Made by a program: the position numbers and the translations under genes
In this document: piece after piece, positions 31,294 through 33,449 of the stretch
Numbering within the stretch: position 1 is the stretch's first letter
Layout: each line of letters opens with the position of its first letter
Notes under the pieces: model-generated
Told to the model about the DNA's origin: nothing
The model's database searches: none
Seen by the model: the letters and a program-made list of their open reading frames with translations, nothing else
Assembly: GCA_021789435.1 (NCBI GenBank)
Contig: JAJYJO010000007.1
Location: 1-55,811, forward strand
DNA from: Chloroflexota bacterium
Lineage (GTDB): Bacteria > Chloroflexota > Limnocylindria > Limnocylindrales > CSP1-4
Reading direction: 5' to 3'
Length of the DNA: 55,811 nt

Positions 31294-32325
31294 TCAGCTC
31301 GCGAGCGGCGCCCCCTGGGCCCGCCCGGCCGTCGGCCGGCCGTCCGGCAGCGCGTCGCCGATGCCACGAGCCGCCCGGACGCGGCGGACTGCCTCGACGA
31401 TCACCCGCATCTTGGCCTCGGCCTCCTCGACGGTCCGCGTCTTGAGCCCACAGTCCGGGTCCACGAAGATGCGCTCCGCCGGCATGACCTCCAAAGCCGC
31501 CTCGATGCCCCGGACCGCCTCGTCCACCGTCTCGATCCGGTGGCTGTGGACGTCCACGACCCCCAGCCCGATCGCCTTGGTGAAGGGAATCGCCCGAAAG
31601 CGCTCCAGCAGGTCGTAGCCCGAGTTCGACATCTCCAGGTCGATCTGGTCGACCGGGATGTCGAGCATGGCCGGGTAGGCGCGGGCGAAGTCGCCGTAGC
31701 AGATGTGGGTGATGGCGTGGGCCTGGAGCCCGTCGGTGACGATGGCCATCGCCTCCGCCACCAGCGGCAGCTCGTCCATCCGGGCCGACGCAGCGGGCTC
31801 GTCAACCTGGATGAAGCCCGCCCCGGCGGCCGCCAGGTACATCGCCTCGGCGTGGATCGCCCGGGCCAGGTCCAGGACGAACTCGCGGCGGGACGGGTAG
31901 TGCTCGTCGAAGCTCCAGTCGGCGATCGTGTAGGGCCCGGTCAGCATGCCCTTGACCGGGCGATCGGTCAGGGACTGGGCGAACCGCCAGGCATCCACCG
32001 TGATCGGATGCGTCCGCCGCACCGCGGCCACGGCGATCGGCTTGCGGTAGTAACGGTTGCCGTAGCTGCGGACCAGGCCGCCGATCTCGAAGCCGGCCAG
32101 CTCCTCGGCGAAGTAGGTGGCCATGTCGCCGCGGTACATCTCGCCGTCAACCAGGATGTCCACCCCGATCGACTCCTGGAAGCGGATCCAGGTCTCGGTC
32201 GCCTGTCGCTCCAGGGCGGCCAGCTCTTCGTCGGAGACGCGGCCCGCGGCATGCTCGGCCCGCGCCTTCAGCAGCTCGGGCGGCTTGGGAAACGAGCCGA
32301 CCGAGGTCGTCCACAGGCCGTTCAT
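31294..32325 (-). CDS. Core methionine synthase (MetE C-terminal-type), zinc ligands present
   Basis: A 343-aa protein matching the C-terminal catalytic half of cobalamin-independent methionine synthase. It starts TTSVGSFPKPPEL and has FIQVDEPAA (substrate binding). Zinc-ligand candidates are His and Cys in AITHICYGDF and Cys in FVDPDCGLKTR. The N-terminal half of classical MetE is absent, as in the short 'core' MetE proteins. It probably methylates homocysteine, with a methyl donor that may not be polyglutamyl folate. Its ATG overlaps the stop of a paralogue (ATGA). Confidence 0.87.
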   Translation of the reverse strand: MNGLWTTSVGSFPKPPELLKARAEHAAGRVSDEELAALERQATETWIRFQESIGVDILVDGEMYRGDMATYFAEELAGFEIGGLVRSYGNRYYRKPIAVAAVRRTHPITVDAWRFAQSLTDRPVKGMLTGPYTIADWSFDEHYPSRREFVLDLARAIHAEAMYLAAAGAGFIQVDEPAASARMDELPLVAEAMAIVTDGLQAHAITHICYGDFARAYPAMLDIPVDQIDLEMSNSGYDLLERFRAIPFTKAIGLGVVDVHSHRIETVDEAVRGIEAALEVMPAERIFVDPDCGLKTRTVEEAEAKMRVIVEAVRRVRAARGIGDALPDGRPTAGRAQGAPLAS

Positions 32326-33449
32326 GGCGTTCCCTCCTCGCCTGCCTCGACGGCCGCCACCGCCGGATCGACGGGGTCGTCGCCGGCCCGGGGCGTGCGG
32401 CCGAGAGCGGCCTCCCGGATCCCCAGTGCCCGCGGGTCGAGCTGGCCGGCCAGCTCCTCGCCGGCCGGCAGCATGGCCAGCCGGGCGACCTCGCCGAGCA
32501 GCTCGATCTTGGCCCTGGCCCGGTCGCGGGGCAGGTACTCCAGGCCCGTGGAAGGCGCCAGCCCGACGCGGTCCTTGCCGCGCCCCTGGGTCGAGGCGGC
32601 GTAGAAGGCTGCCCAGAGGACCACCTCCTTCTCCTCCGGCCGCGTCGTGCGGGCGTCGACGGCGCCGCAGACGATCCCTCGCTCGTGCGGCGCCTGGGCG
32701 ATCAGCCGCCAGTTGTCGGGGCCGGCCCGCAGGTCGAAGAGGTAGCTTGCGTACGGGGCATCGAAGAAGGTCGCCGGACCGGCCGCGTCGGCGTCGCCCA
32801 TCGTGACCGCCAGCGAGAGGTGGGTGCCCGCGACTCCGTCCAGCAGCCGCCGCTGCGCCTCGCGGAAGAGCCGCTGCTCGGCCGCGTCGTCGCCGATCAG
32901 GGTCGCCGCGTTCTCGTCGACCTGGATCAGGGGGCAGCCGGCCGCGGCCAGGGCGCGCAGCTCCTGGTTGAGCGCCTCGGCCAGGGCCAGCGTCAGCCGC
33001 TCCCGGCCGATCTCGCCGGCGTCGGCGAGGCGGGCCAGCGTGTAGGGCCCCGTGACGCACTGCTTGACCGCGCGCTCCGTGCACGACGCGGCGAAGCGCC
33101 AGTCCTCCACCGTGATCGGGCCCGTCCAGCGCGGCTCCGCCAGGGCCCGTGGCTGGCGGTAGTAGGTGTTGGTGTCGAAGTAGCGGAGCAGGCCGGTGAC
33201 CTCGAAGCCGGCGAGGCCACGGGCGAACGCGGTCTGGGCGTCCTCCCAGCGAACCTGGCCGTCGGTGATCGGCTCCAGGCCGGCGGCCTCCTGCTCCGCG
33301 ACCAGTTCCCGGACGAGCTCGTCCTGGACGGCCCGGAAGGCGGCCGCGTCGATCTCGCCGCGCTCCAGCCGGCCGTACGCGGCGCGGAGGCGGAACGGCT
33401 GCCCCGGCAGCGGGGTCCGGGGATAGGCGCCGACCAGGGTCGCGAACAT
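32322..33449 (-). CDS. MetE-like paralogue lacking zinc ligands
   Basis: A 375-aa protein of the same family as its neighbour (start TLVGAYPRTPLPG, QVDENAATL, VKQCVTGPYTLARLAD). The zinc positions differ: LSLAVTMGDAD stands where the partner has THICYGDF, and LAPSTGLEYLP where it has VDPDCGLKT. So the His-Cys pair and the late Cys are missing and ordinary methionine synthase chemistry is unlikely. GGAGG precedes the ATG at 33449. The ATGA overlap with the intact gene implies equal synthesis, perhaps as a complex in which this chain binds or delivers the methyl donor. Confidence 0.8.
   Translation of the reverse strand: MFATLVGAYPRTPLPGQPFRLRAAYGRLERGEIDAAAFRAVQDELVRELVAEQEAAGLEPITDGQVRWEDAQTAFARGLAGFEVTGLLRYFDTNTYYRQPRALAEPRWTGPITVEDWRFAASCTERAVKQCVTGPYTLARLADAGEIGRERLTLALAEALNQELRALAAAGCPLIQVDENAATLIGDDAAEQRLFREAQRRLLDGVAGTHLSLAVTMGDADAAGPATFFDAPYASYLFDLRAGPDNWRLIAQAPHERGIVCGAVDARTTRPEEKEVVLWAAFYAASTQGRGKDRVGLAPSTGLEYLPRDRARAKIELLGEVARLAMLPAGEELAGQLDPRALGIREAALGRTPRAGDDPVDPAVAAVEAGEEGTP

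Follow-up and report, generated by a model that had tools for sequence, protein, structure and literature searches.

Two overlapping genes, P0001 and P0002, very probably encode the two halves of a B12-independent methionine synthase as separate proteins (split MetE). They lie in a window of 55,811 nucleotides, the whole stretch of DNA that was analysed, which is contig C153 of a 2.85-Mb Chloroflexota genome in 156 contigs (91% complete). The upstream, N-barrel type of subunit is called N in what follows, and the downstream, catalytic type C.

The gene pair and its setting

An earlier sequence-only reading had pointed to two MetE-like ORFs joined by an ATGA overlap; this arrangement is real and both products exceed the Pfam cut-off for the MetE families (Table 1). 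The two ORFs are separate, which sets them apart from a one-chain MetE with both barrels in more than 670 aa, and their products of 375 and 343 aa, each within 400 aa and encoded with a 4-bp overlap, have the size and adjacency of split MetE subunits. A core methionine synthase of the MesA-MesD kind has no N-barrel partner, and here a partner gene overlaps P0002. In the Pfam search the pair was found to be flanked by genes for a DUF5666 protein and for a protein without Pfam match. No methionine gene was recognised beside the pair in the window in a Pfam run on these two flanking genes and a few others, and the Rfam scan of the window gave no family.

Table 1. Positions of the pair, its motifs and the related solo genes (window coordinates unless a locus is named)
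Feature	Position	Strand	Description
P0001, upstream gene	32322-33449	-	375 aa; putative non-catalytic MetE N-barrel subunit
P0002, downstream gene	31294-32325	-	343 aa; putative catalytic MetE subunit, zinc/homocysteine site complete
Stop/start codon overlap of P0001 and P0002	32322-32325	-	4 bp, ATGA on the minus strand
Counterpart of the long hairpin of the MetE N-barrel (T. maritima Lys104...His111)	33150-33185	-	P0001 residues 89-100, RYFDTNTYYRQP
GPDNW motif	32709-32723	-	P0001 residues 243-247; host's bacterial family, paired and solo N
Family-specific tail LDPRA...GR beyond the barrel	32397-32441	-	P0001 residues 337-351
THICYGDF	31687-31710	-	P0002 residues 206-213; zinc ligands His207 and Cys209
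DPDCGLKT	31438-31461	-	P0002 residues 289-296; zinc ligand Cys292
Zinc-less solo N-barrels	L010-L023, L027, L029, L031, L189-L208		Hairpin lost, purifying selection
Half-size N descendants	L097:587-1201, L098:3423-4037, L099:7868-8662, L100:1580-2374, L101:5325-6119, L102:6964-7959		

The putative catalytic subunit

P0002 matched Meth_synt_2 with 274 bits in Pfam and the NCBIfam methionine synthase model PRK04326 with 391 bits, under its cut-off of 406. When aligned with E. coli MetE (L184), it has S, E, D, H, C, E and C at seven positions of that enzyme. The motifs THICYGDF and DPDCGLKT, which had been proposed to bind zinc, do align with the E. coli ligands H641, C643 and C726, and Glu231 is the counterpart of E665. 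Among 81 catalytic subunits (P0002 and those of loci L103-L182), the alignment showed S433, E484, D599, H641, C643 and C726 (E. coli numbers) kept in every one and E665 in 79. In T. maritima numbers, Arg493, Trp539, Asp467 and His672 were also kept in 81 of 81, and Arg496 was Arg or Lys in 72 of 81. The pterin-binding Glu583 (T. maritima) was replaced by Thr, Val or Ala in all 81 proteins, and four alignment columns next to it are missing in the split catalytic subunits.

The upstream subunit

P0001 scored 73 bits with Meth_synt_2 and 53 bits with Meth_synt_1 in Pfam. Its loops corresponding to the zinc motifs of P0002 read MGDAD and STGLEYLP, and the four zinc-ligand positions are occupied by Ala, Thr, Asp and Thr in the larger joint alignment and by His, Ser, Asp and Thr in a smaller one that differs in the register of strand 5. 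Both alignments agree in the absence of the two cysteines and in the change of Glu to Asp, and thus bear out the sequence-only reading that the upstream gene is without zinc ligands. At the Glu665 position both P0001 and the E. coli MetE N-half have Asp, and at the His694 position 78 of 78 N subunits have Arg, again like the E. coli N-half.

According to the accessible text of the T. maritima MetE structure report (PMC539065), Lys104, Arg15 and Lys18 of the N-barrel form part of the folate site, and His111 may be the proton donor. The corresponding hairpin of P0001 is listed in Table 1 and the E. coli MetE segment is KWFNTNYHYMVP. In an alignment of 78 N rows (P0001 and the proteins of 77 of the 80 loci described below), 76 rows had Arg in place of Lys104 together with the hairpin Asn, the other two being gaps; His111 is Tyr or Phe in the split N proteins. 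Since the split N proteins keep the hairpin positions, the pterin-side loop of the MetE N-half is present in the upstream protein. A tree of 73 rows, made with a quick SH-aLRT method and with long branches present, split all 42 N rows (split, solo and canonical N-halves) from all 31 C rows with a support of 99. The AlphaFold2 model of P0001 is a confident barrel (pLDDT 92.6) whose best solved matches are MetE-family proteins (Z 31-37), followed by uroporphyrinogen decarboxylases from Z 23; this structure comparison (VIA-align) does not tell an N- from a C-barrel, with rows on both halves at Z 34-37. The hairpin, the Arg and Asp positions and the tree split all point to descent of the partner from the MetE N-half. 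The earlier suggestion that this protein replaces the missing half of MetE is thereby supported, together with the gene order and the published archaeal split MetE.

Relatives and gene order

When named genomes were scanned with P0002, 80 loci were kept, with 57-88% identity and nearly all from MAGs. Their bacterial titles comprise Chloroflexi/Chloroflexota, Actinomycetota, Dormibacteraeota, Eisenbacteria, Omnitrophota, Deltaproteobacteria, Latescibacterota, Acidobacteria, TA06, Elusimicrobia and Armatimonadetes, and the archaeal ones Nanoarchaeota, Hadesarchaea and Hodarchaeaceae; the closest named relatives of P0002 bear 'Chloroflexi bacterium' titles. An N-type gene lies on the same strand within 200 bases upstream of C in 73 of the 80 loci, which rules out a chance arrangement of ORFs, and a 4-base overlap was inferred in 31 of these 73. 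The N-type gene is 2-4 kb upstream in four further loci and was not seen in three, two of which are near contig ends. Neighbours recurring across the 80 loci showed no metabolic link except an MTHFR fusion in two. Loci L046-L050 make up another MetE-like group, whose His-Cys-Glu-Cys ligands are intact; in the tree (rows L046, L047, L048 and L059) it is distinct from both split and canonical MetE.

Within the family of the host, the catalytic gene (P0002 match at 1e-60) is present in 14 of 107 genomes and the MetH activation domain (PF02965) in 53, and the two never occur together (Fisher p 4.6e-5, phylogeny ignored). Even a single genus, g27, has the pair in two genomes (G026 and G108) and MetH in two others (G109 and G111).

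Comparison with known systems

Split MetE has already been described, and the novel part here is the orphan N proteins presented below. In the open-access literature searched, only Price et al. (2021; PMC7857596) bore directly on split MetE. It is reported there mainly from archaea, with Sulfobacillus as the one bacterial case; the components of P. furiosus, PF1268 and PF1269, are stated to form a complex; and the folate-side component is called hard to identify. The filter given there, a partner scoring higher with Meth_synt_1 than with Meth_synt_2, is admitted to miss true cases, one of which is named. The pair resembles archaeal split MetE as outlined in that text, namely two genes, usually adjacent, each for at most 400 aa, with a catalytic barrel of the C-half type and an N-barrel partner. 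It differs in being bacterial and in P0001 scoring higher with Meth_synt_2, so that the published filter would miss the pair. Of eight other paired N proteins, two passed this filter and six failed it as P0001 does, and such failure may be why bacterial pairs went uncounted. Our comparison with the archaeal type is based on NCBIfam models and on the Hadesarchaea and Hodarchaeaceae loci. Split MetE thus extends here across about eleven bacterial groups in MAGs that the published filter would largely miss, an omission that affects predictions of methionine and B12 dependence.

As far as the accessible text on canonical MetE of E. coli and T. maritima goes (PMC539065), the pair shares with it the two barrels, the zinc and homocysteine residues and the N-barrel hairpin, but the canonical enzyme is a single chain with a linker, and Glu583, the adjoining insert, Lys104 and His111 are altered in the split pair. 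The core methionine synthases MesA-MesD have a similar single catalytic barrel of about 340 aa and, unlike the pair, are described without an N-barrel partner in the sections available of PMC7857596 and PMC7005905; there, corrinoids are the presumed donors for MesA-MesC, and MesD depends on MesX. An adjacent DUF1852 gene (PF08908) would mark the MesD/MesX type; of the two genes next to the pair, one matches DUF5666 and the other no Pfam family. Chloroflexales also have MesB-like proteins (PMC7857596, accessible text) that are MetE-like barrels of Chloroflexota without zinc ligands, but they are described as relatives of MesB, which would set them apart from P0001.

Methyl donor and alternative explanations

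Nine pair-bearing genomes among 61 relatives (G000, G007, G009, G024, G026, G032, G056, G058 and G060) were checked for other components of methionine synthesis. An MTHFR domain was present in eight of them, G060 being the one where none was found, and the B12-binding_2 domain was absent from seven. In G056 (L073:7676-10538) the MTHFR, N and C genes follow one another with a 4-bp overlap at both junctions, and N is immediately preceded by a homocysteine-methyltransferase/MTHFR fusion gene in L148 and L155. Neither S-methyl_trans nor B12-binding_2 domains were found in G056, G058 and G060; therefore, the pair is their only candidate methionine synthase among the kinds searched.

A check proposed with the sequence-only reading, the presence of metE or metH elsewhere in the genome, gave no PF01717 match other than P0001 and P0002 and no MetH activation domain (PF02965), but two genes with a homocysteine S-methyltransferase domain (PF02574). 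A homocysteine-methyltransferase/MTHFR fusion is encoded on contig C83, and on C44 (L067:7357-11419) a homocysteine S-methyltransferase gene is divergent from RACo and MTHFR genes, a possible corrinoid-linked route to methionine. RACo reactivates corrinoid proteins. Contig C32 (L209:3975-7934) has, in a row, genes for formate-THF ligase, the strongest corrinoid protein of the host and an MttB-family methyltransferase, suggesting the use of methylated amines. In view of the PF02574 genes, RACo and the MttB-linked corrinoid protein, the pair need not be the sole methionine synthase of this host.

Methyl-THF is the likely donor, in a changed pocket, because MTHFR co-occurs with or adjoins the pair and Arg493, Trp539, Asp467 and His672 are kept. 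The idea of an unknown donor, also put forward from the sequence, is not supported: eight of the nine pair genomes have the MTHFR domain, and in three relatives a gene with this domain immediately precedes the pair. We infer that the split MetE would work as follows. The downstream barrel would bind zinc and homocysteine and carry most of the methyl-THF site, and the upstream barrel, predicted to be incapable of zinc binding of the MetE type, would dock on it face to face and contribute the hairpin of the N-barrel as a lid on the pterin. The methyl group would then pass directly from 5-methyl-THF, the product of MTHFR, to the zinc-bound homocysteine. A stoichiometric complex of N and C is plausible by analogy with the archaeal enzyme; the ATGA overlap, from which such a complex had been suggested, is insufficient alone to show its formation and may serve to keep the two subunits at near-equal amounts.

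The missing pterin Glu and adjoining insert would also suit a different enzyme, in which P0002 works alone as a core methionine synthase supplied by a corrinoid protein, with P0001 as a regulator or dispensable paralogue. That insert is reported to be missing from single-domain archaeal enzymes as well (PMC539065, accessible text), and the host has a corrinoid protein on C32 and RACo on C44. However, the C32 corrinoid protein is encoded between the formate-THF ligase and MttB-family genes, seven of the nine pair genomes have no B12-binding_2 domain and an MTHFR-domain gene adjoins the pair in three relatives. A dispensable partner also agrees poorly with the adjacency of N and C in 73 of 80 loci and with a hairpin that is found in 75 of 75 paired N proteins and is absent from 32 of 32 solo ones, and we regard this explanation as unlikely.

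A donor other than methyl-THF is possible because the canonical pterin Glu is missing in 81 of 81 catalytic subunits, and a heterodimer that methylates homocysteine from a methyl pterin or another donor would explain this absence as well as the replacement of His111 in N; other methyl pterins are allowed for archaeal split MetE in the accessible text of PMC7857596. The MTHFR domain in eight of nine pair genomes, the MTHFR-N-C operon of G056 and the retention of Arg493, Trp539, Asp467 and His672 nevertheless make it very unlikely. That the substrate of the pair is a thiol other than homocysteine, and its product not methionine, is hardly credible: no methionine gene was recognised beside it in the window and the host has other genes with a homocysteine methyltransferase domain, but all the homocysteine substrate residues of MetE are kept, the catalytic gene and MetH are mutually exclusive in the family, and G056, G058 and G060, without S-methyl_trans or B12-binding_2 domains, have no other candidate of those kinds.

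Orphan N proteins

An N-type gene without the catalytic gene was found in 53 of the 107 family genomes, a genome being considered solo when its best P0001 hit reached at least 120 bits and it had no P0002 match at 1e-60. No description of orphan MetE N-halves was found in the open-access literature searched. MetH is an incomplete reason for the orphaning, because PF02965 is present in only 18 of the 53 solo genomes and absent from 35. Contig breaks were rejected as the origin of the solo genes, several of which have neighbouring genes on either side within long contigs (G011:C1, 582 kb; G018:C4, 265 kb; G006:C4, 143 kb), in genomes without P0002 match at 1e-60. By gene order, many orphans occupy the position of the pair. 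In G024, N is flanked by two-component genes and followed by C, c16 and, further on, c7 and c11; nearly the same order, with C missing, was observed in G033, G011 and G021, the N gene of G033 being known from the locus search and missed by the gene caller.

Motifs were compared between 75 paired rows (12 of the family and 63 others, with the truncated L114, L134 and L143 left out) and 32 solo rows drawn from 37 loci, four of which yielded no row, with L201 omitted as a repeat of L020. All 75 paired proteins had the hairpin motif, and none of the 32 solo ones did. GPDxW was found in 31 of 32 solo proteins, these having been picked by a start pattern plus a GPY, GPF, GPW or GPDNW string that may slightly favour it, in 11 of the 12 paired proteins of the host's family and in none of the 63 of other groups. 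Since GPDxW is common to paired and solo N proteins of the family, such features most simply predate the loss of the catalytic gene. Ten solo proteins formed one group (SH-aLRT 99) inside the N proteins of the family in a quick-method tree. The dN/dS values of close solo pairs (dN <0.2) were 0.16-0.33, with more diverged pairs up to 0.69, and the medians in genus g8 were 0.18 for paired N and 0.08 for paired C. The model of a solo protein is again a MetE-like barrel (pLDDT 90), and its best structural rows are 3rpd, which is MesD in the accessible text of PMC7857596, and MetE C-barrels (Z 32-34).

Smaller descendants occur in a genus of the same order with genomes of about 1.1 Mb, where 18 of 19 genomes have a P0001 match. 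Five of the six N descendants examined are ORFs of 193 aa with a GTG start and one has 260 aa; the 193-aa forms retain a few initial residues and the second half of the barrel and show dN/dS of 0.08-0.15 among them. The orphan N-barrel apparently serves a new job after the loss of the metal-binding half. We lean, with some reserve, towards a history in which the N-barrel of the family gained a second function while still paired (GPDNW, RGxxRV and the C-terminal tail), was retained when half of the family lost the catalytic subunit, then gave up the folate hairpin and, within the same order, became a half-barrel of 193 aa in small-genome relatives, with a novel role and still under strong purifying selection. 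Half an enzyme may, in the orphans, have given rise to a new protein function. Pejchal and Ludwig, in the accessible text of PMC539065, ask why MetE recruited a second, mostly disabled barrel, and paired versus orphaned N-barrels offer a natural experiment on this question.

The surroundings of the orphans vary. The solo N genes of L077, L082, L094 and L096 adjoin ABC-transporter-like genes, labels that were read from the sequence and one of whose products had no Pfam match, and a DHDPS-family gene is near the solo N of L082; this setting hints at an unrelated catabolic role. The half-size forms are found in the same stretch as a rhomboid/TPR gene (c1) that is the companion of many full-length orphans.
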